Of a stretch of DNA of 64,000 nt, positions 24,161 to 55,629 are shown piece by piece (the stretch's first letter is position 1; every line of letters begins with the position of its first letter). Under the pieces are notes generated by a model. That model was not told the DNA's origin. It saw only the letters and a list, made by a program, of their open reading frames with translations, and made no database searches. The DNA comes from Lachnospiraceae bacterium (lineage in GTDB: Bacteria; Bacillota; Clostridia; Lachnospirales; Lachnospiraceae): the NCBI GenBank assembly GCA_017476665.1, contig JAFUZJ010000014.1, positions 1-64,000 of the forward strand. The letters are read 5' to 3'. Made by a program: the position numbers and the translations under genes.

Positions 24161-25070
24161 TTCAGGAAATCTTTTAAAAATGGGTTTTATGACCCAGGGG
24201 TCCGAAAAGCGTATGATCAACAGCAATGAGCTGGTTGCAAAGCGCATGGAGGAATGGGCGCAGAAGGCAGCGCCGCGGGATGAAAGGGCAGCAGAGGACG
24301 AATCCGGTTTTTCTGCAGGGCTTTCCGTCGAGCAGGTGGAAGGTCTGTTGGGTGATGTGGATTTTGCGGACGGATTGTCCGGCAATGTGATCAAAGCGGG
24401 GGCTGCGGAGGATGCAGAGGCGGCCAGGGAAGCCGAGCGAGAGCAGCTTCTGGCCGAGACCAAAGGGGCTGCGGACGCGTTCCTGGCGGATGCCCAGGAA
24501 AAGGCAAAGCAGGAGGCGGATCATCTGCTGGAGGCGGCGAGGGAGCAGATCGCCGCAGAGCGGGAGGAAGCGCTGACCCAGGCGAGAGAGCAGGGGTATC
24601 AGGAGGGCTTCCACAAGGCGGAACAGGAATTCGCGGCAAAGGAAAGGCACCTTGCAGAGAAAGAAAAGCAGCTGGAGGCAGAATACAATGAGATGTTGAG
24701 CCAGCTGGAGCCGAAGCTGGTGGAGACGATCGGAGATGCCTATGAGTACCTGATCGGGGTGGAAATGGCCTCCTACAAGGATATTCTGGTGTATATGATC
24801 TCCTCCGCGGTGCGCAGGATTGAAAGCGGGAAAACCTTTACCGTGCATATCTCCGGTGAGGACTACCCTTATGTCAGTATGGAAAAAAAGAAGCTGGAGG
24901 CGGCGTTGTCCTCTCCCAGCGCCACATTGGAATTGGTTGAGGATACTACGCTTAGTCACAATGAATGTATGATTGAGACCGAGGGCGGTATTTTTGATTG
25001 CGGACTGGGGACACAGCTGCGGGAGCTGGCGAAGCGGCTGAAGCTGCTGTCGTATGAGAAGCAGGATTAA
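24153..25070 (+). CDS. fliH: Flagellar export regulator FliH
   Basis: 305 residues; negative regulator/stator of the export ATPase FliI. Long Glu/Ala/Lys/Gln-rich coiled region (about 80-190), then the FliH C-terminal domain (VETIGDAYEYLIGVEMASYKDILVYMI). Start: no ATG fits the family N-terminus. TTG at 24153 lies 8 nt after a perfect GGAGGTGA inside the end of fliG, and I prefer it to the GTG at 24141 that overlaps the ribosome site. It overlaps fliG by 8 bp. Start uncertain by a few residues. Confidence 0.85.
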   Translation: MSSSGNLLKMGFMTQGSEKRMINSNELVAKRMEEWAQKAAPRDERAAEDESGFSAGLSVEQVEGLLGDVDFADGLSGNVIKAGAAEDAEAAREAEREQLLAETKGAADAFLADAQEKAKQEADHLLEAAREQIAAEREEALTQAREQGYQEGFHKAEQEFAAKERHLAEKEKQLEAEYNEMLSQLEPKLVETIGDAYEYLIGVEMASYKDILVYMISSAVRRIESGKTFTVHISGEDYPYVSMEKKKLEAALSSPSATLELVEDTTLSHNECMIETEGGIFDCGLGTQLRELAKRLKLLSYEKQD

Positions 25071-25072
25071 TC

Positions 25073-25190
25073 TGCTGCATGTTCCATTGCATGCATAGCA
25101 TATTCTGCAAGCGGCACGCTTGCGCTACGTGAAAAGCGTAGCAGGTGCCTTTTTGCAGAATATGCTATACATGCAGTGCGTATTGCAGCA
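25073..25190 (+). repeat. Dispersed palindromic element, copy 1 (short form) between fliH and fliI
   Basis: Fills the 139-bp fliH-fliI gap. Outer arms: TGCTGCA...TGCAGCA at the ends, an ~8-nt unpaired stretch, then a ~22-bp stem ending CATATTCTGCAA / TTGCAGAATATG. The core has GGCAC...GTGCC enclosing hairpin A (GCTACG-TGAAAAG-CGTAGC). Hairpin A and its flank (GGCACGCT) match copy 2 at 41529; hairpin B found in copies 2 and 3 is missing. No coding capacity. Confidence 0.75.
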
Positions 25191-25209: not shown

Positions 25210-26526
25210 ATGCAGGCTCCGAATATAGATTTTACGAAGTATGCGCGATTGACGGAGAGAGCTTATTTCCGCAGGTTGGGCAAGGTGGTCAATGTGGTCG
25301 GGCTGACCATTGAGTCGGCCGGACCGGATGCGAAGATGGGGGATCTGTGCCGTATTTTGCCGGAGGCGGACTCCGGATATCCGCCGATCCAGGCGGAGGT
25401 GGTGGGATTCAAAAACGGAAGAACCCTGCTGATGCCCTATGATAACGTGGAGGGCATCGGACTCGGATGTATTGTGGAGAATACGGGATATCCGCTGACG
25501 GTGACTGTGAGCGACGCACTGTTGGGCAAGACGTTAAACGGTCTCGGCAGACCCACGGACGGCACTGTGATCACGGGGGCGGAGTATCCGGTAGACCAGA
25601 ACCCGCCGGATCCCATGGATCGCGCGATCATCGATCAGATCCTGTCTCTTGGGGTGCGGGCAGTGGACGGTCTGATCACCATCGGAAAAGGACAGCGAAT
25701 CGGAATTTTTGCCGGATCCGGTGTGGGCAAGTCCACCCTGATGGGCATGTTTGCAAGGAATACCAAGGCGGACATCAATGTTATTGCACTGATCGGAGAG
25801 CGTGGCAGAGAGGTGCGCGAATTCATAGAGAGAGACCTGGGCGAGGAAGGTGTGAAGCGTTCCGTTGTGGTGGTCGCGACTTCGGACAGGCCGGCATTGG
25901 AACGTAAAATGGCGGCCATGACGGCGACGGCCATCGCGGAATATTTCAGGGATCAGGGGAAGGATGTCCTTCTGATGATGGATTCCCTGACCCGTTTTTC
26001 CATGGCGCAGCGGGAGATCGGGCTTGCCAGCGGTGAGCCGCCGGTGACCAGAGGATATCCGCCCAGCATGTATGCGACGATGCCCAGGCTTTTGGAGCGG
26101 GCTGGAAGAGATGCGAAAGGTTCCATTACGGGACTTTATACCGTGCTTGTGGACGGCGACGACTTCAACGAGCCGATTACAGATACGGCGCGAAGCATTC
26201 TGGACGGACATATCATGCTGAACCGGAAACTGGCACACAAAAACCATTATCCGGCTATCGATGTGCTGCAGAGCATTTCCCGATGCATGAGCCAGGTGGC
26301 GGACAAGGAGCATAAGGCGGCTGCGGGTAAGCTGCGCAATATTCTGGCAACCTACAATGACGCGGAGGATCTGATCAACATCGGTGCCTACAAGAAAGGC
26401 AGCAATCCGTCCATCGATTATGCCATGAGCAAGATTGACGAGGTGAACGACTTCCTGTGCCAGAGCACGGAGGAAAAAGTGGATTTTGAAGAGAGCTCGC
26501 GCCGGATGAAGGAGATGTTCGGGTAA
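25210..26526 (+). CDS. fliI: Flagellum-specific export ATPase FliI
   Basis: 438 residues, F1-beta-like hexameric ATPase that energises export of flagellar subunits. Walker A AGSGVGKST at residues 168-176; Walker B region VLLMMDSLTRFSMAQREIGL; then the family block GEPPVTRGYPPSMYATMPRL. Start ATG 25210 follows AGGAGGAGAG; a longer frame runs back into the palindromic element and is not supported. FliJ follows with TAATG overlap. Confidence 0.97.
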   Translation: MQAPNIDFTKYARLTERAYFRRLGKVVNVVGLTIESAGPDAKMGDLCRILPEADSGYPPIQAEVVGFKNGRTLLMPYDNVEGIGLGCIVENTGYPLTVTVSDALLGKTLNGLGRPTDGTVITGAEYPVDQNPPDPMDRAIIDQILSLGVRAVDGLITIGKGQRIGIFAGSGVGKSTLMGMFARNTKADINVIALIGERGREVREFIERDLGEEGVKRSVVVVATSDRPALERKMAAMTATAIAEYFRDQGKDVLLMMDSLTRFSMAQREIGLASGEPPVTRGYPPSMYATMPRLLERAGRDAKGSITGLYTVLVDGDDFNEPITDTARSILDGHIMLNRKLAHKNHYPAIDVLQSISRCMSQVADKEHKAAAGKLRNILATYNDAEDLINIGAYKKGSNPSIDYAMSKIDEVNDFLCQSTEEKVDFEESSRRMKEMFG

Positions 26527-30587: not shown

Positions 30588-32321
30588 ATGATGAGATCAT
30601 TGTATGCCGGCGTATCCGGCTTAAAGACCCACCAGACCAAGATGGACGTTATCGGTAACAACATCGCGAACGTAAATACAACTGCATATAAGTCAAGCTC
30701 CATCACCTTCAGCGAGCTGATGAGCCAGACCACACAGAGCGCCAGCGGTCCCAACGCGACCACCGGTGTGGGCGGTATCAATGCGAGACAGGTCGGTCTG
30801 GGCGTAAAGGCAGGCGCTATTAACTTAAACATTACCGGACAGGGTGCCAGCCAGTCCACCGGAAATCCTTTCGATATCATGATCAACGGGGAGAATTTCT
30901 TCGTGGTATCCAACGGACAGGAGAATTTCTTCACCAGAGAGGGTTCGTTCTATGTGGATGGTGCCGGAAACCTTGCCATGACCAGTAACGGTTACAACGT
31001 TATGGGGTGGCAGGTGGATGACTACACCGGCGCAATCAAGCAGGATACCGTGAGCGCGCTGCGCATCATGAGCGCCGCAAATATGACATATCCGCCCGAG
31101 GCGACTTCCAAGGCGTATATTTCCGGTATTTTGGATAAAAACGATACGGATGTGACCAGTGCCAACGGTAAGGTTGTGAATCTGAACATCTATGACAATC
31201 TGGGTTACAGCTATACTGCAAGAATGATCTTCAGACAGTCTTCCGATCCCAATGTTTATGGGTTGGAGTTTAATAAACTGCTGGATTCCAAGGGCAATGA
31301 AGTGGAGATGACCGAAGCCCAGAGACAGGCGGCGTTCGGCGGCGCAGAGACCATGGAGAAAGAGACTAATATTGAGTTGGGCAAGAGTTATGCATGGGAC
31401 GCTTCCGGAAACCTGTCCGTCAACGGTGAGACCATTGTGTATGCTACCGGCAATACAGATTATCCTTACAGTACGGTTTCGAACTTTGCGGATCTGACCG
31501 ATGAGCAGAAAGCGGCGCAGAATGAAAAGGCGATCTCGCTGATCGCAAAAGCCTACGGCTATGAAGGATCCGAAAATGAATTCCTCAATCTGAAAATTCC
31601 CGTAGCGGTGGGGGATGATACCCAGAATTACAGCATTCAGCAGATCATCAGTCAGTCGGTGGAAGCGCTGTCCGGCAAAACGCTGGCGAACACGCTCGGC
31701 TCCGGTGCTGTATCCCCGGGACGCGCGTATTACGGATTTGAAGTGCAGTTCAATCCGGACAACGGTGAAATTGCCAAAGTCGGTGCCAGCGGTACCAACT
31801 TTGTGACGAATCTGAAGTTAGCTGACATGGGAGAGGAATTCACCAATTTCTCCAACATTGAGATCGACCTTTCGGAGATTTCCATGTTTGATAACAAGGG
31901 AACTTCCACAGTGGCGGCGACCAGCGGTGACTTTGATGGCGTAGGTACCGGAAGACGCCTGGGAGATATGATCGGCGTGTCCGTTCAGAACAACGGTATG
32001 ATCTATGCCAGCTACGATAACGGTATGACCAAGCTGTTAGGGCAGATCGCCACGGCGGCATTTGCCAACGCTTCCGGTCTGGAGAGAGCGGGAGATAATC
32101 TGTACTCTGCAACCCTGAACTCCGGCGTATTTGACGGCGTGGGTGTGGATATTACCGCAAACGGCGGCTATATGTCCACCGGTATGTTGGAGATGAGTAA
32201 TGTGGATCTGTCCTCCGAGTTTACGGAGATGATCACCACACAGAGAGGCTTCCAGGCAAACAGCCGTATCATCACAGTATCCGATACGCTTCTGGAGGAA
32301 CTGACCAATCTGAAGAGATAA
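30588..32321 (+). CDS. flgE: Flagellar hook protein FlgE
   Basis: 577 residues, exported and polymerised into the hook. N-terminal LYAGVSGLKTHQTKMDVIGN and NIANVNTTAYKS; the C-terminal D0 helix (SNVDLSSEFTEMITTQRGFQ, ANSRIITVSDTLLEEL) is the axial-protein signature. The large middle part makes it a hook rather than a rod (FlgF/FlgG) protein. Longer than many FlgE (400-450), suggesting an enlarged surface domain. Followed by two hairpins that look like a transcription stop. Confidence 0.93.
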   Translation: MMRSLYAGVSGLKTHQTKMDVIGNNIANVNTTAYKSSSITFSELMSQTTQSASGPNATTGVGGINARQVGLGVKAGAINLNITGQGASQSTGNPFDIMINGENFFVVSNGQENFFTREGSFYVDGAGNLAMTSNGYNVMGWQVDDYTGAIKQDTVSALRIMSAANMTYPPEATSKAYISGILDKNDTDVTSANGKVVNLNIYDNLGYSYTARMIFRQSSDPNVYGLEFNKLLDSKGNEVEMTEAQRQAAFGGAETMEKETNIELGKSYAWDASGNLSVNGETIVYATGNTDYPYSTVSNFADLTDEQKAAQNEKAISLIAKAYGYEGSENEFLNLKIPVAVGDDTQNYSIQQIISQSVEALSGKTLANTLGSGAVSPGRAYYGFEVQFNPDNGEIAKVGASGTNFVTNLKLADMGEEFTNFSNIEIDLSEISMFDNKGTSTVAATSGDFDGVGTGRRLGDMIGVSVQNNGMIYASYDNGMTKLLGQIATAAFANASGLERAGDNLYSATLNSGVFDGVGVDITANGGYMSTGMLEMSNVDLSSEFTEMITTQRGFQANSRIITVSDTLLEELTNLKR

Positions 32322-32386: not shown

Positions 32387-32432
32387 ATATATCCGGTGAT
32401 ATAGCTGTGATGCAAGGCAATTTCGCAGGTGC

Positions 32433-32574
32433 ACCCGGCTATATGATATACTTCACAAGCAGGGGCGTTTGAGGACGCCGGCACTTAGGCAGCGCATTTT
32501 GCTGCCTTAGTGTTCGTTGCGTCCGAAATCGAACGAGAGGTGTACCCTGCGGTGAAGTATATCATAGGCCGGGT
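32433..32574 (-). repeat. Dispersed palindromic element, copy 3 (inverted) between flgE and flbD
   Basis: Read on the minus strand it aligns over its length with copy 2 (41529): shared TATACTTCACCGCA, ACACTAA.GCAGCA, CGCTGC.TAAGTGCCG.CGT and TGAAGTATA. Outer arms ACCCGGC... pair with each other and differ from those of copy 2. Hairpin A here is TCGTTCG / CGCAACGA, changed on both sides relative to copy 2; hairpin B is GGCAGC / GCTGCC. With the terminator hairpins it accounts for most of the 282-bp gap 32322-32603; no gene seen. Confidence 0.8.
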
Positions 32575-32603
32575 TGGCTGCTGATAAAGCGGGAGGATAA
32601 GAC

Positions 32604-32789
32604 ATGATCGAGGTTACAAAACTGAACGGCGTGAAAATACTGGTAAATCCCCATTTATTGGAAATTGTGGAAGAAACGCCGGATACAGTGCTTACTTTGA
32701 CCACAGGCAAAAAAATAATTGTAAAAGAAAGTAGACAAGAGATTAAAAATCTAGTAAAATTGTATCGAAAGGATATTCTGGCAGATTAG
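32604..32789 (+). CDS. flbD: Flagellar protein FlbD/SwrD family
   Basis: 61 residues: MIEVTKLNGVKILVNPHLLE, then TPDTVLTLTTGKKIIVKES, the FlbD/SwrD family pattern (C-terminal part VKLYRKDIL). In B. subtilis SwrD raises motor torque, possibly acting on the stator; its position just before motA/motB fits that. Strong GGGAGGA ribosome site. First gene after the flgE terminators and palindromic element, so it may start a transcription unit, though I see no clear promoter. Confidence 0.9.
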   Translation: MIEVTKLNGVKILVNPHLLEIVEETPDTVLTLTTGKKIIVKESRQEIKNLVKLYRKDILAD

Positions 32790-36132: not shown

Positions 36133-37584
36133 ATGGATGGAATGCTTTCTCAGGACGAGATCAATGCCCTGTTAAGCGGAATGGATCTGTCGGGCGACAC
36201 GCCTCCGGAGATACCGGAAGATATGATCGCTGCAGATACCTCCCAGAGTTCCATGCCTTCCAATAACGGGTATTTTGCCGGAGCGGGTGCGAGCACAAGC
36301 GGCGACGAGACATTGTCGGATGTGGAAAAAGATGCCATCGGAGAAGTGGCAAACATCAGCATGGGATCTTCGGCAACCACACTGTATTCGCTGGTTAATA
36401 AAAAAGTTGATATCACGACTCCTGTTGTGGAACTGGCAACCTGGGACAGTTTGCTGGTGGATTATGAGAAGCCGTGCGTATTTACCCAGATCAAGTATAC
36501 GGTGGGACTTGACGGCTCCAACATCATGGTCTTAAAGGAACAGGATGTAAAGATTATCACGGACCTGATGATGGGCGGTGACGGTACAAATATAGACGGG
36601 GAGATTACGGATCTGCATCTGAGTGCGATCTCGGAGGCTATGAACCAGATGATGGGTTCCGCTGCCACATCGCTTTCCACAATGTTGAATTCGGTGATCG
36701 ATATCAGCCCGCCGATTTCATCCCTGCTGGATCTGACAACCGTGAAAGCGGCGGAGGAGATCGCTCCGTTTCTGGGCGGAGTTTTTGTTAAGATTTCTTT
36801 CCGCATGCAGATTGATACGTTGGTAAATTCCACGATCATGCAGCTGTACCCGATCGATTTTGCAAAAAAGCTGGTAGAGACTTTCATCGATACGCAGATG
36901 GGCGGAGCCGGAATGGGAGGAAGCTCCTCCACACCGGAGCCTGTACCGGAGCCTGCACCGACACAGGCTCCTTCCGCAGGAGACATGAGCGGCGGCATGC
37001 AGAGCATGCCGGGTATGGGGATGCCTATGGGCGGTATGCAAGGCATGCCCGGTATGGATATGAGCGGTATGGGCGGCATGCCGGGTATGGGGATGCCTAT
37101 GGGTGGTATGCAAGGCATGGGCGGCATGCAGGGCATGCCTGGGATGCCTATGGGCGGCATGCAGGGCATGGGCGGAATGCCTATGGGCGGTATGCCGGGT
37201 ATGGGGATGCCTATGGGCGGCATGCAGGGTATGAACGGCATGCAGAGTATGCCTGGGATGCCCATGGGCGGCGCGCCGATGCAGCAGAATGTCAACGTCC
37301 AGCCGGCACAATTCCAGAGCTTTTCCGGGGATATGACCGGGGGGGCCGGCCAGGAGAATATCGGCCTGATCAAGGATGTTCCGTTGGAAGTTACCGTAGA
37401 ACTGGGACGGACGACGAAGTCTATCTCGGAAATATTGGATTTTTCACCGGGAACCATTATCGAACTGGATCGTATCGCGGGTGAGCCCATTGATGTGCTG
37501 GTCAACGGCAAGTTCGTGGCGAAGGGTGAAGTGGTTGTAATTGAGGAAAGTTTTGGTATCAGAGTAACAGAAATTATTAAATAA
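36133..37584 (+). CDS. fliY: FliY: switch protein with CheC-type phosphatase domain and FliN domain
   Basis: 483 residues. Order: N-terminal CheY-P-binding motif MLSQDEINALLSGM; CheC-like phosphatase domain with both active sites intact (D67xxxE71xxN74 and S164xxxE168xxN171); a ~98-residue Met/Gly/Pro-rich linker (about residues 285-382, roughly every third residue Met); and a C-terminal SpoA/FliN domain (VPLEVTVELGRTTKSISEIL, FGIRVTEII). It should both dephosphorylate CheY-P at the switch and form the C-ring base. The linker is far more Met-rich than ordinary FliY linkers. Starts 3 bp after fliM. Confidence 0.95.
   Translation: MDGMLSQDEINALLSGMDLSGDTPPEIPEDMIAADTSQSSMPSNNGYFAGAGASTSGDETLSDVEKDAIGEVANISMGSSATTLYSLVNKKVDITTPVVELATWDSLLVDYEKPCVFTQIKYTVGLDGSNIMVLKEQDVKIITDLMMGGDGTNIDGEITDLHLSAISEAMNQMMGSAATSLSTMLNSVIDISPPISSLLDLTTVKAAEEIAPFLGGVFVKISFRMQIDTLVNSTIMQLYPIDFAKKLVETFIDTQMGGAGMGGSSSTPEPVPEPAPTQAPSAGDMSGGMQSMPGMGMPMGGMQGMPGMDMSGMGGMPGMGMPMGGMQGMGGMQGMPGMPMGGMQGMGGMPMGGMPGMGMPMGGMQGMNGMQSMPGMPMGGAPMQQNVNVQPAQFQSFSGDMTGGAGQENIGLIKDVPLEVTVELGRTTKSISEILDFSPGTIIELDRIAGEPIDVLVNGKFVAKGEVVVIEESFGIRVTEIIK
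36982..37281 (+). repeat. Repetitive Met/Gly/Pro-coding tract inside fliY
   Basis: About 300 bp of degenerate short repeats around GGCATGCAGGGCATG and GGTATGGGGATGCCTATGGG units, coding GMQGMPGMPMGGM-like peptide repeats in frame. The repeats are prone to slipped-strand length change in multiples of 3. Confidence 0.85.
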
Positions 37585-40422: not shown

Positions 40423-41529
40423 ATGTTGAAATATAATCTGCAGTTCTTTGCAGAGGGGCAGGGCGGCGAGAAGACCGAACCTGCTACTGAGAAAAAGCTG
40501 AGCGATGCGAGAAAAGAGGGACAGGTAGCCAAGAGCCGTGAGATTGCAAACGGTGTGGGGATCATGGCGTTGTTTTTGATCCTGCGTTTCTGGGTGCCGA
40601 CCATGGGCAGACAGCTGCTGCAGATATTTTCCGTGTTTTACGGGAGAATCGCGGACCTGGTGATCTTTTGGCGGGGCTATATGCCCCAGACCGACACAAG
40701 AATTGTTTTCAGAAATCTGTTATTGCAAAGTATTATCATTATGGGACCAATTTTGCTGATTGGTCTCCTTATTGCGTTCTTGTGCGATGTGGTGCAGGTG
40801 GGCTGGAAACCGACCATGAAGCCGATGCAGCCCAAGCTGAGTAAATTTAATCCGTTGTCCGGCTTGAAAAAGATCATTTCGGTCAACTCATTGGTAGAAC
40901 TTGTCAAAGCGATCGCGAAGATTGGCGTGATTGCATATATGTGTTATAATTATCTGAAGGACAAATGGAATCTGCTCTTTATCCTGTATGATATGCCGCT
41001 TACCCAGGCGCTGAATCTGCTGTTGACCACTGTTACGGATCTGGGGATCCGCATCGCGGCGGTCTATATGGTGATTGCGTTTGCGGATTTTGCCTATCAG
41101 AAGTGGAAATTTGCGAAGGATATGCGAATGACCAAGCAGGAGATCAAGGACGAGTACAAGCAATCCGAAGGAGATCCCCAGATCAAGGGACGGATCAGGC
41201 AGAAGATGCGGGAAGCGTCCCAGCGCCGTATGATGCAGGATCTGCCGAAGGCGGATGTGGTCATCACCAACCCGACGCATTATGCCGTGGCGATCAAATA
41301 TGATCCGGAGGTGGCGGAGGCCCCCACGGTGCTGGCCAAAGGAGAAGATTATCTGGCGCAGCGCATCAAGGAGATCGCCCGGGAAAACAACGTGGAGATC
41401 GTGGAAAACAAGCCCCTTGCCCGTATGCTGTATGCAAATGTGGAGGTAGGGGAGGCTGTGCCGCCGGAGTTGTATCAGGCGGTGGCGGAAGTGCTGGCGT
41501 TTGTGTATCATTTGCAGGGACGGGTATAA
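40423..41529 (+). CDS. flhB: Flagellar export switch protein FlhB
   Basis: 368 residues. N-terminus EKTEPATEKKLSDARKEGQV is the family signature, then four membrane helices, and a cytoplasmic domain with the self-cleaving NPTH site at residues 283-286 (VVITNPTHYAVAIKY). Cleavage switches export from rod/hook to filament substrates in response to FliK. A palindromic element begins at its stop codon. Confidence 0.97.
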   Translation: MLKYNLQFFAEGQGGEKTEPATEKKLSDARKEGQVAKSREIANGVGIMALFLILRFWVPTMGRQLLQIFSVFYGRIADLVIFWRGYMPQTDTRIVFRNLLLQSIIIMGPILLIGLLIAFLCDVVQVGWKPTMKPMQPKLSKFNPLSGLKKIISVNSLVELVKAIAKIGVIAYMCYNYLKDKWNLLFILYDMPLTQALNLLLTTVTDLGIRIAAVYMVIAFADFAYQKWKFAKDMRMTKQEIKDEYKQSEGDPQIKGRIRQKMREASQRRMMQDLPKADVVITNPTHYAVAIKYDPEVAEAPTVLAKGEDYLAQRIKEIARENNVEIVENKPLARMLYANVEVGEAVPPELYQAVAEVLAFVYHLQGRV

Positions 41530-41701
41530 AAATCGCATTGGTGTCATGGTGTCGGCGGTATACTTCACCGCAAGGCACGCTGTCGCTACATGAAAAACGT
41601 AGCGGACACTAATGCAGCAGAGTACGCTGCATAAGTGCCGACGTTTTTCAACTGCCTTGCTCATGAAGTATACCGCCGACACCATTCGGAATTGCGATTT
41701 T
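41529..41701 (+). repeat. Dispersed palindromic element, copy 2 (full-length) between flhB and flhA
   Basis: 173 bp. Outer arms AAAATCGCA / TGCGATTTT, an ~8-nt internal loop, then an about 22-bp perfect stem (ATGGTGTCGGCGG... / ...CCGCCGACACCAT) continuing into TATACTTCA / TGAAGTATA. Inside are hairpin A (CGCTAC-ATGAAAAAC-GTAGCG) and hairpin B (TGCAGC-AGAGTAC-GCTGCA). It has no coding potential and occupies most of the 224-bp flhB-flhA gap. Related elements are at 25073 and 32433. Confidence 0.82.
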
Positions 41702-41753
41702 AGATAGAGCGTATACAAAACATAGATAGGATCACGGAAAGGAGGAACGGCGC

Positions 41754-43799
41754 ATGAGTACAAAACTGCAGAGAACAGACGCGATGGTCGCAATCTATAT
41801 GCTGGTCGCGTTTATCATGTTCATCGTCCCTCTTGATTCCTGGATTCTTGATATATTTATGGCATTCAATATTGCCATGGGATTCACCATTCTTTTTGTG
41901 AGCATGTTTGTCAAGGAAGTACTGGATATTTCTTTTTATCCGACCATTTTGCTGTTTACGACCATTTTCCGCCTTGGACTGAACGTATCTTCCACGAGAC
42001 TGATCCTGTCTACGGGAGATTCCGGAAACGTCGTAAAGACATTCGGTGCGTTTGTCGGCGGCGGTGATATCATCATCGGTGCCATCGTATTCATCATCAT
42101 GATCCTGGTGCAGTTTCTGGTGATCAACAAAGGTTCCGAACGTGTGGCTGAGGTAACGGCGAGATTTACATTGGATGCCATGCCCGGTAAGCAGATGGCC
42201 ATCGATGCCGATCTGAATACGGGGACGATCGATGATAAGGAGGCAAAGCGCCGCCGTGACAAGATCCAGGAGGAGTCCAGCTTCTTCGGTTCCATGGATG
42301 GTGCGGTGAAATATGTAAAGGGAGATGCCACAGCCGGCCTGATCCTGACCGCGCTGAACTTTGTCGGCGGAATTGCCATGGGTGTGCTTCGGAGCGGCAT
42401 GGATGTCAGCACGGCGCTTCAAAACTACGGCATTCTGACCATCGGTGACGGTCTGGTGAGCCAGATCCCTTCCCTTCTGATCTCTCTGTCCACCGGTATT
42501 CTGGTGACGAAGGGCGGGAAAGAAGTAGAGTTCGGCGGAGAGATCATCAAGCAGCTTTTCGGCATTCCCAAAGTCATGTATCTGGTGGGAGGGACGTTGG
42601 CCTTCTTGGGTGTGGCCACGGAGCTGAACACGATCCTGTTCGTGGGAATGGGTATGCTGTTCGTTGTGGGAGGCAGGATGATCGCCGGCAACCTGGAGAC
42701 GGCGCAGATCGAACAGGAGGTGGACACCGAGGAGGTGGAGGCCGAGGAGATCAGGCAGCCGGAGAATGTGAACAGTCTGCTGCAGGTGGATCCCATCGAG
42801 CTGGAGTTTGGTTACGGTATTATTCCTTTAGCCGATGTAAACCAGGGCGGTGACCTGTTGGACCGCGTGGTCATGATCAGAAGACAGATCGCATTGGAAC
42901 TTGGTACCGTCGTGCCGATTATTCGTCTGCGCGACAATATTCAGTTGAATCCGAATCAGTATATTATTAAAATAAAAGGGATACAGGTCAGCGAGGGCGA
43001 GATCCTGTTTGACCACTATATGGCCATGAATCCCGGTTATGTGGAGGAAGAGATCACGGGTATTCCGACCTTCGAGCCGTCCTTCCACCTGCCGGCTACC
43101 TGGATCACCGAAGGTCAGAGGGAACGGGCGGAGAGTCTGGGCTACACGGTGGTGGATCCGCCGTCTATCATCGCGACCCATCTGACGGAGATCATCCGCC
43201 AGTACATAGCGGAACTGCTGACCCGCCAGGATGTGCAGAATCTGATCAATAATCTGAAGGAGACCAACCCGTCTCTGGTGGACGAGCTGGTTCCGAAGCT
43301 GTTGGGCTTGGGCGAGATCCAGAAAGTATTGCAGAATCTTTTGCGGGAAGGAATTTCCATACGAGATCTGCTGACGATCATGGAAACGTTGGCGGACTAT
43401 GCGACGACGACAAGGGATACCGATATTCTGACAGAGTATGTGCGTCAGAGCCTGAAGCGTGCCATTTCCACCAAATTTTTCCTTGCCCATGAAGCTACCA
43501 GCGTGGCCACGCTGGATCCGAAGGTAGAGCAGGAGATCATGGGCAGTGTGAAGCAGACGGAGAACGGTGCCTTTATCAATCTGGATCCCTCCAGGGCGCG
43601 GGCGATCATCGACGCTGTGGGCGCGGAGATCAAGAAGCTGGAAAACCTCGGAAAAGCGCCGATCATCATTACCTCTCCAATCGTGCGGATTTATTTTAAA
43701 CGTCTGACCGAGGAATATTACAGGGATCTGGTGGTCGTGTCATATAATGAAGTGGAATCAAATGTTGAATTACAGTCAGTTGGGATGGTGACAGCATAA
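41754..43799 (+). CDS. flhA: Flagellar export apparatus protein FlhA
   Basis: 681 residues. Eight membrane helices in the first ~310, with the conserved cytoplasmic loop (FVINKGSERVAEVTARFTLD, AMPGKQMAIDADLNTG) between them, then the large cytoplasmic domain that forms the nonameric chaperone-docking ring. AAAGGAGGAACG ribosome site. Stop overlaps the flhF start (TAATG). Confidence 0.97.
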   Translation: MSTKLQRTDAMVAIYMLVAFIMFIVPLDSWILDIFMAFNIAMGFTILFVSMFVKEVLDISFYPTILLFTTIFRLGLNVSSTRLILSTGDSGNVVKTFGAFVGGGDIIIGAIVFIIMILVQFLVINKGSERVAEVTARFTLDAMPGKQMAIDADLNTGTIDDKEAKRRRDKIQEESSFFGSMDGAVKYVKGDATAGLILTALNFVGGIAMGVLRSGMDVSTALQNYGILTIGDGLVSQIPSLLISLSTGILVTKGGKEVEFGGEIIKQLFGIPKVMYLVGGTLAFLGVATELNTILFVGMGMLFVVGGRMIAGNLETAQIEQEVDTEEVEAEEIRQPENVNSLLQVDPIELEFGYGIIPLADVNQGGDLLDRVVMIRRQIALELGTVVPIIRLRDNIQLNPNQYIIKIKGIQVSEGEILFDHYMAMNPGYVEEEITGIPTFEPSFHLPATWITEGQRERAESLGYTVVDPPSIIATHLTEIIRQYIAELLTRQDVQNLINNLKETNPSLVDELVPKLLGLGEIQKVLQNLLREGISIRDLLTIMETLADYATTTRDTDILTEYVRQSLKRAISTKFFLAHEATSVATLDPKVEQEIMGSVKQTENGAFINLDPSRARAIIDAVGAEIKKLENLGKAPIIITSPIVRIYFKRLTEEYYRDLVVVSYNEVESNVELQSVGMVTA

Positions 43800-54975: not shown

Positions 54976-55629
54976 ATGAAATTGAAATATTATTTGCGCG
55001 GATTGGCCACAGGACTTGTGATCGCCACGCTTATCCTTACAATTGCAAACAGAGATAACAAGCCGCTCACCGACTCGCAGATCAGACAGCGCGCAGCCGA
55101 GCTGGGAATGATAGACGGCGACAGCCTGAAGCTGTCTGCATTGCAGAGCAGTGCACCGCAGGCAGAACCTGGCGGTACAGCAGAACCTGGTGGTTCTGCG
55201 GAGTCGAGTACTGCAGCGGAGTCAAGCAGTGTTGCAGAGCCAAGCAGTGCAACAGAACCTGGCGGTACAGCAGAACCTGGTGGTTCTGCGGAGTCAAGTG
55301 CTGCAGCGGAGTCAAGCAGTGTTGCGGAACCCAGCAGTATAGCAGAATCCAGCAGTGCAGCAGAATCCAGCAGCACAGCAGAGCCCGGCAGTTCGGAAAC
55401 GCCCAGCCGGCCTGTGGGTACGGACGGTGCAGTCACGATCGTTATTTCCGGCGGCGCAACTTCCTACACGGTCAGCAAGGATCTGGCAGCTGCTGGATTG
55501 GTGGAAGATGCCAAAGCATATGATGCATTTCTGTGTGACAACGGCTATGCGCATACGATCCGCGTGGGAACCTATGAGATCCTTCCCGGTACAAGCGGGG
55601 AAGAAATCGCAAAAATGATCGCACGATAA
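54976..55629 (+). CDS. Membrane-anchored protein with Ser/Ala/Glu/Pro repeats and MltG-like C-terminal domain
   Basis: 217 residues: N-terminal membrane helix (GLATGLVIATLILTIA), a ~80-residue low-complexity linker built of EPGGS, AESS and SSVAEP units (two 30-residue tandem copies), and a ~65-residue C-terminal domain (VTIVISGGATSYTVSKDLAA... VGTYEILPGTSGEEIAKMIA) like the LysM-like N-terminal subdomain of YceG/MltG. The MltG catalytic domain is absent, so it probably binds the wall without cutting it. Last gene before the cluster terminator; starts 3 bp after its neighbour. Confidence 0.75.
   Translation: MKLKYYLRGLATGLVIATLILTIANRDNKPLTDSQIRQRAAELGMIDGDSLKLSALQSSAPQAEPGGTAEPGGSAESSTAAESSSVAEPSSATEPGGTAEPGGSAESSAAAESSSVAEPSSIAESSSAAESSSTAEPGSSETPSRPVGTDGAVTIVISGGATSYTVSKDLAAAGLVEDAKAYDAFLCDNGYAHTIRVGTYEILPGTSGEEIAKMIAR
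55163..55342 (+). repeat. Two 90-bp tandem repeats in the linker of the MltG-like gene
   Basis: Copies 55163-55252 and 55253-55342, both starting CAGAACCTGGCGGTACAGCA; nearly identical, 30 codons each, so copy number change keeps the frame. Confidence 0.9.

Follow-up and report, generated by a model that had tools for sequence, protein, structure and literature searches.

Putative miniature mobile elements with a predicted branched core in the flagellar gene cluster and other intergenic regions of Lachnospiraceae genomes

Palindromic elements between flagellar genes

The window analyzed in this study, a stretch of 64,000 nucleotides from a Lachnospiraceae genome, carries flagellar genes with palindromic elements in the gaps between them. 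The element named copy 2 occupies the flhB–flhA gap at 41529..41701, where the open reading frame (ORF) of flhB ends at 41529 and that of flhA starts at 41754; its core strand is the minus strand, and its fold pairs 41529 to 41701. Copy 3, delimited by its fold and the neighboring genes, spans 32433..32574 between a FlgE/F/G-type gene (ending at 32321) and flbD (starting at 32604), with the plus strand as core strand, and the two copies are oppositely oriented relative to the flagellar genes. Both palindromic structures named in the original prediction are present: the minimum free energy is −97.1 kcal/mol for 41520–41710 (copy 2; z −11.9) and −77.1 kcal/mol for 32425–32580 (copy 3; z −8.7), and none of 200 shuffles equalled either fold. 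Their proposed kinship was also confirmed. The two copies are homologous because blastn of the own genome with copy 2 recovers copy 3 (73% identity, E 1.1e-11), and a covariance model built from 27 sequences, both full window copies included, matches copy 2 at 41550..41675 on the minus strand (106 bits, E 1.7e-30) and copy 3 at 32444..32570 on the plus strand (97.5 bits, E 7.8e-28), each sequence being part of the model.

The same model recovers a deleted copy that is absent from it, lacks the apical hairpin, and lies at 25073..25190 (minus strand; core match 25090–25167, 40.7 bits). We take this element to be the "copy 1" that had been mentioned without definition. It is situated 3′ of fliH (ending at 25070) and 5′ of a fliI-like ATPase gene, the listed ORF of which starts with TTG at 25120, inside the copy, with an ATG at 25210. 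Elsewhere in the window, a tandem repeat of GGCATG/GGTATG units at 36996–37272 is perhaps coding (Met-Gly-rich), and eighteen-base tandem repeats at 55163–55414 perhaps represent a Ser/Pro-rich coding repeat.

Distribution of the family

The family was first noticed in the flagellar cluster and is not confined to it: its copies are dispersed elsewhere in the genome and share no common neighbor gene. Dispersed copies in the own genome were recovered by blast with copy 2 and then with a better-preserved copy (L011), and matches were found in 14 of 61 same-genus genomes, the own genome included. With the covariance model, the own genome gave 26 rows corresponding to 20 distinct places, six rows being opposite-strand repeats; three of the 20 places score only about 39–41 bits. 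The family was detected by the model in 127 of 299 sampled Lachnospiraceae genomes, representing 126 of 298 sampled genera, and all 11 positives among the 391 genomes of a class-wide sample were Lachnospiraceae. Copy numbers from scans of more than 40 genomes are lower bounds, since these scans used stricter filters and scored only 9–11 candidates per genome. A pattern scan of named genomes yielded at least 118 stretches, mostly titled Lachnospiraceae or genera of that family; a few titles among the matches listed (e.g., Muribaculum, Gastranaerophilales) lie outside this range, perhaps because the bins carry a wrong label. These named loci come from an exact pattern, so that a perfect hairpin foot is over-represented among them, whereas the GNRA loop and stem P1 lie outside the pattern. 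Some places were entered twice via overlapping genome sets (e.g., L089/L140, L091/L251, L118/L184, and L125/L231). As judged from these searches, the range of the element is so far Lachnospiraceae alone, a dominant family of gut bacteria. The covariance-model search of the genome and its relatives, proposed along with the original prediction, thus returned further copies and covariation above background rather than an absence of either.

Gene context was counted for 200 of the 215 listed cores, those of at least 60 bits, and 192 of the 200 lie outside ORFs of at least 200 aa. Neither of two patterns matched any viral contig, no plasmid matched one query copy, and one query copy gave a single weak match among phage records, to an unannotated 4-kb record; a phage or plasmid origin was rejected on these results. 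No Rfam family matches the element at the gathering threshold in the window or at 20 loci, and permissive scans with two copies gave only matches far below the gathering scores, which led us to reject a known RNA family. The repeat family apparently is undescribed: our literature searches showed no account of it among the matches listed, and the candidate set of PMC8040213, which comprises thousands of microbiome RNA candidates, may include it.

Predicted structure of the core

The core is modeled as a three-way junction formed by a long outer stem (P1), an arm (P2), and a short GNRA-capped hairpin. Along the core strand, the 5′ side of P1 is followed by P2, a CT or TT bulge, the short hairpin AGC-GNRA-GCG, and the 3′ side of P1. 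The hairpin at the top of P2 reads GGTACTTAG-stem-GTAYTTT-stem-CTTA(T)GTACC and contains a T.T mismatch and the GTAYTTT loop. In copy 2, the sequence and the 27-sequence alignment place this apical hairpin, with its conserved mismatch and loop, at 41604..41639 (minus strand); it is the hairpin B noticed earlier, which proved real and constitutes the tip of P2 in the conserved fold. The short hairpin of copy 2 lies at 41579..41586 (minus strand), and its loop, a GNRA cap in most copies, is GACA here and GAAA in the orthologue of genome G780. The other stem proposed from the window, hairpin A (CGCTAC/GTAGCG), is complete in just 3 of 27 sequences and represents a local alternative pairing, not a conserved stem.

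Among 134 copies retained after thinning of 227 rows, T occupies the mismatch 131 times on its 5′ side and 133 times on its 3′ side, and the apical loop is GTAYTTT in 100. The short hairpin has a GNRA loop in 118 of 125 four-base loops, and of 120 GNNA loops, 118 have a purine (A or G) as their third base. In the 27-sequence alignment, 93.3% of the cells of a named 44-pair structure are paired, vs. 74.7% when shuffled and 29–44% when slid. Both sides change in 35 of the 44 pairs, and none of 500 shuffles reaches any of five measures, which bears out the early observation of arms that differ yet stay complementary. RNAalifold alone proposed 40 pairs, 34 of them with double change. Model-based alignments are biased toward structure, and a strand-neutral alignment (111 of 182 copies kept) that avoids this bias was used for the comparison of G.U and A.C pairs below.

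Ends, target duplications, and a candidate partner

An automatic scan of the 186 copies with sufficient flank identified terminal inverted repeats plus a target duplication in 33, against 1 of 372 swapped-flank controls; the other 153 show no clean ends plus duplication, and among them are the window copies, which have only degenerate ends. Eighteen of the positives are of the TAGG type, with TAGGYAATTGCGAAAC-like ends and a duplication of 10–14 bp (13 copies) or 5–9 bp (five copies). Ten have GTGTCAAAAG-like ends, with a duplication of 7 bp in seven and 5–6 bp in three; two copies, both from one Butyrivibrio bin, carry a third end type, and three of the 33 positives (L038, L153, and L189) are off-register or doubtful. 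The first two end types are well supported, and the third is known from its two copies. Near-identical copies exist within genome G225 and within genome G169, which suggests transposition. All six near-identical copies read in G225 have GRTTCGGGTGTCAAAAGCCC ends and 7-bp duplications, and the motif GTGTCAAAAGCCC occurs 72 times in G225 and 98 times in G169 (0 and 2 for the reversed control).

These elements are short, non-coding, and dispersed in multiple copies (20 places in the own genome, and cores mostly outside long ORFs), they have inverted ends and target duplications in the 33 copies above, and for the TAGG type only they have an autonomous partner with the same ends. On these grounds we consider the family, with high confidence, to consist of miniature non-autonomous transposable elements of about 200–260 bp. 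Among the options raised at the outset, a MITE-like mobile element is the one that the many copies, their ends and duplications, and the partner insertion sequence (IS) speak for.

The partner lies in the own genome outside the window (G000:C23:82821-84589; L265:822-2590) and was found by an end search of four genomes as two facing TAGG-type ends, the commonest kind, 1.77 kb apart. It is an intact IS with a 13-bp target duplication, ATTTTGTAGCCCC, it encodes a 490-aa transposase ORF, and the core is absent from it; the genes around it resemble ATP-synthase subunits by eye. The transposase matches DUF772 (PF05598) with 49.2 bits (cut-off 23.1, E 5.3e-13) and gives a partial match to the NCBIfam IS1182 model NF033551 (72.9 bits, E 2.4e-20), and because the latter score is far below the cut-off of 270, we call it IS1182-like and not a certified member. 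Among 16 genomes tested, it is intact in the own genome only; in G048 there is a fragment, and the match in G171 is partial (34% identity). Ends shared with this IS make it likely that TAGG-type elements are moved in trans by an IS1182-like transposase.

For the 7-bp type no partner was found, and neither G225 nor G359, both of which hold copies with 7-bp duplications, has a DUF772 gene. An autonomous IS with GGTTCGGG-type ends was also sought and rejected, given the same lack of a DUF772 gene and no kb-scale facing pair among the matches listed for G225 and G169. G169 has an IS1182-like IS that adjoins a copy and has an 8-bp duplication, and its ends, GATGTTGGGGTCAAATAGCCCC, resemble the second and third end types; scanned in the same way, the surroundings of the IS1182-like gene in G017 show no matching ends. 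Clustering of 682 neighboring proteins revealed, by eye, only common families, with apparent ABC transporters at 21 loci and apparent response regulators at 10 as the largest clusters, and a linked partner gene was rejected.

Close pairs of cores show a single inverted order: 12 pairs are inverted with the 5′ ends of the core strands facing (L137, L173, L156, L200, L151, L182, L227, L250, L088, L114, L115, and L043), none have the opposite inverted order, and seven run in the same direction. Extragenic palindromes with inverted pairs are reportedly characteristic of REP/REPIN sequences and their RAYT transposases, and inverted ends with target duplications are not known as REP features. We therefore weighed whether the apical hairpin could be a REP-type sequence mobilized by a RAYT (tyrosine) transposase. 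In addition to the inverted pairs, the palindrome foot carries GTAG on the reverse strand and often CGTC on the core strand, and GTAG and CGTC tags and oppositely oriented dimers are REP features in PMC3733652. The foot is CTACG in 16 of 27 alignment sequences by eye, though these bases are part of stem P2 and the bulge. Such an origin is nevertheless extremely improbable, as the inverted ends and duplications do not fit it, the units here are larger (200–260 bp), and Y1_Tnp (PF01797) is absent from seven of 13 family-bearing genomes, including the own genome and G225 (present in six; the E. coli control was positive), on which ground the RAYT/REP origin was rejected.

Probable constraint on the core

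A MITE is expected to conserve its ends while its interior drifts. Here the interior is kept and the ends differ, which suggests that usefulness resides in the folded core. The GNRA rule of the short hairpin is of RNA type as compared with DNA loops. In the strand-neutral alignment (111 thinned copies), P1 contains 62 G.U vs. 27 A.C pairs (p 0.0003), whereas the outer ends contain 32 G.U vs. 29 A.C (p 0.8). The closest copies differ by 31 single and three double changes (24 comparisons) and distant copies mostly by double changes; in the bin of 9–14 differences, single changes to A.C (331) exceed those to G.U (287), these copy-against-copy counts being all-against-all among 193 distinct rows and non-independent. 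Together with the slow evolution of one orthologous site described below, the GNRA rule, the surplus of G.U over A.C pairs that P1 shows and the outer ends lack, and the succession of single and then double changes indicate that the core probably is under RNA-level constraint.

Several features would suit a core that instead acts as DNA, as a cruciform or single-strand hairpin for transposition or host-protein binding, with changes that preserve a DNA palindrome. The stems are nearly all Watson–Crick (5258 cells vs. 156 G.U, or about 3% G.U among the 5414 standard pairs), and RNA families usually have a higher G.U share. Among the 134 thinned copies, one base pair occurs as C-G (102 copies) or T-A (32 copies) with no intermediates, and close inverted pairs occur in one order only (12 vs. 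0). Orientation to genes is random: of the 168 cores (among 200) with a gene on both sides, 57 are sense and 65 antisense, with 26 and 20 mixed, and this randomness also weakens a strand-specific cis role. Neither the G.U excess confined to P1 nor the preference for A or G at the third position of GNNA loops is what a DNA palindrome would predict, and the autonomous IS is coreless and so requires no core for its own transposition. We regard action as DNA as rather unlikely.

The compensatory changes could also stem from quasi-palindrome correction during replication, in which case the fold would be functionless and the elements simply selfish MITEs. Some close pairs of copies do lack single changes altogether and are set apart by one to four double changes, and in the strand-neutral alignment the outermost ends are also largely complementary. 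The predominance of single changes in the closest pairs does not fit correction, nor do the double changes in six inspected pairs, which are scattered and form no tracts. Correction would moreover erase the mismatch, bulge, and loops that are conserved here, and the orthologous inner core at flhB–flhA differs at only two of 95 positions. Correction as the full explanation is thus quite unlikely, while arm correction in replication may contribute.

A third possibility is that adjacent genes are regulated in cis by the core, as a leader or attenuator, as might be thought from its position outside long ORFs and, in the window, ahead of flhA, flbD, and the fliI-like gene. It was rejected on the absence of a sense bias (57 sense vs. 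65 antisense) and is highly unlikely; no downstream gene is shared by the copies in general, and no Rfam family matched at threshold.

The flhB–flhA copy in relatives

Among 30 same-genus flhB–flhA loci, a full core is found only in the own genome and G780, one other locus having a hairpin-only match; of the 29 loci besides the own one, 20 have an estimated gap below 100 bp. The own genome and G780, its closest relative at flhB–flhA, differ at 2 of 95 positions in the inner core (41568–41662, a stretch picked after viewing the alignment) and at 9 of 124 in the wider region 41557–41680. In flhA, by comparison, 25 first, 9 second, and 207 third positions differ among 682 codons (30% at the third). 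The slow evolution of the core is seen in this one orthologous pair, where the inner core seems to have stayed nearly constant as the surrounding genes diverged. In P1, one A-T pair has become G-C, and two pairs now read as G.U when taken on the strand of the flagellar mRNA and as A.C on the core strand; these three events are a hint that the mRNA strand matters at flhB–flhA. For copy 3, the G780 contig ends at the locus.

The earlier suggestion of selection on a folded RNA or a cruciform is accordingly upheld for the core: compensatory change, GNRA loops, the G.U excess that is confined to P1 and absent from the outer ends, and the slow orthologous inner core speak for selection on the folded core, while pairing as RNA and pairing as DNA are incompletely separated. 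In the flhB–flhA gap of G055, the stretch L298:1390-1490 has TTTGCGAAAC / GTTTCGCAATTACC ends and no core match, and by eye it resembles a derivative without the core, in the gap that copy 2 occupies in the own genome.

Possible role and comparison with known repeats

The explanation that best accounts for the whole, and which we hold to be reasonably probable, is a non-autonomous mobile element whose core folds as RNA and acts in transcripts. Mobility of the element has good support and constraint at the RNA level is probable; for the role of the core we infer the following. The element would insert into intergenic gaps, the main end type presumably being moved in trans by the IS1182-like transposase, and would be co-transcribed with the neighboring genes as a very stable hairpin. 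Once transcribed, the core might act as a folded RNA that insulates or that serves in the processing or stability of the mRNA. A function in mRNA processing or stability is reported for Correia elements (PMC10969869), which in mRNA are RNase III sites. By this analogy, mRNA processing or stability is the likeliest role of the core, to be taken as tentative. Selection could retain the core for the spread of the element and, at sites such as flhB–flhA, perhaps for the host.

A bolder reading, to which we give somewhat less than an even chance, is that the core is a functional structured RNA of a new class, in effect an RNA module that transposes, with one branched GNRA fold across Lachnospiraceae, the ends of which have been swapped (at least one set being IS1182-like) and single insertions of which, such as that at flhB–flhA, have been adopted by the host under strong purifying selection. 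With its many insertions, one end type that has a likely transposase partner, and one locus where the inner core seems slow, the family is a natural system in which to ask whether mobile elements of bacteria carry preformed RNA structures into operons.

ERIC, Correia/NEMIS, and BOX elements are imperfect palindromes of roughly 100–200 bp in transcribed gaps, as here; to our knowledge they have no branched GNRA core, and we set them apart by description. Prokaryotic MITEs as described in PMC10969869 resemble the present elements in being short and intergenic, with direct repeats, inverted ends that are similar to the ends of an IS in the same genome, and transcripts predicted to fold strongly; the single conserved branched core under different end types differs from those described there, a comparison that covers some of the described MITEs. 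The bcr1–bcr18 repeats of the Bacillus cereus group are likewise intergenic and, according to PMC3446304, about half are transcribed, some are MITE-like, and some have conserved RNA structure. There the MITE-like (bcr1–3) and conserved-structure (bcr10 and bcr18) repeats are separate families in another host group, whereas here, compared by description, both features occur in one element. REP/REPIN sequences with RAYT share the extragenic palindromes, the inverted pairs, and perhaps the GTAG/CGTC foot (PMC3733652) but differ from the present elements, which have inverted ends with duplications and a larger size and of whose 13 hosts seven have no Y1_Tnp. The IS1182-like IS of the own genome agrees with the element in its ends and is similar in its duplication; only the IS encodes a transposase, and only the element has a core. 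Both MITEs and intergenic repeats with structure are already known (PMC10969869, PMC3446304, and PMC3733652), and the distinguishing feature here is the conserved branched core under differing ends.

Related arrangements

In L022, L044, and L061, a second palindrome is inserted in the apical hairpin, as though this hairpin were an insertion target. Four cores form a head-to-tail tandem array with steps of 177–178 bp at L184:4439-5098 (Anaerobium acetethylicum). Copies are numerous in strain GluBS11 of this species, a cultured host. Several G055 contigs begin within the element (L058 and blast rows), the assembly probably having been broken by it. The apical hairpin alone (CTTAG-stem-GTACTTT-stem-CTTAG, the loop sometimes GTTCTTT) recurs in other palindromes of same-genus genomes (L042, L045, L046, L048, L053, L060, and L307:2139-2177), one of them near flhB–flhA, and may be a separate recognized module.
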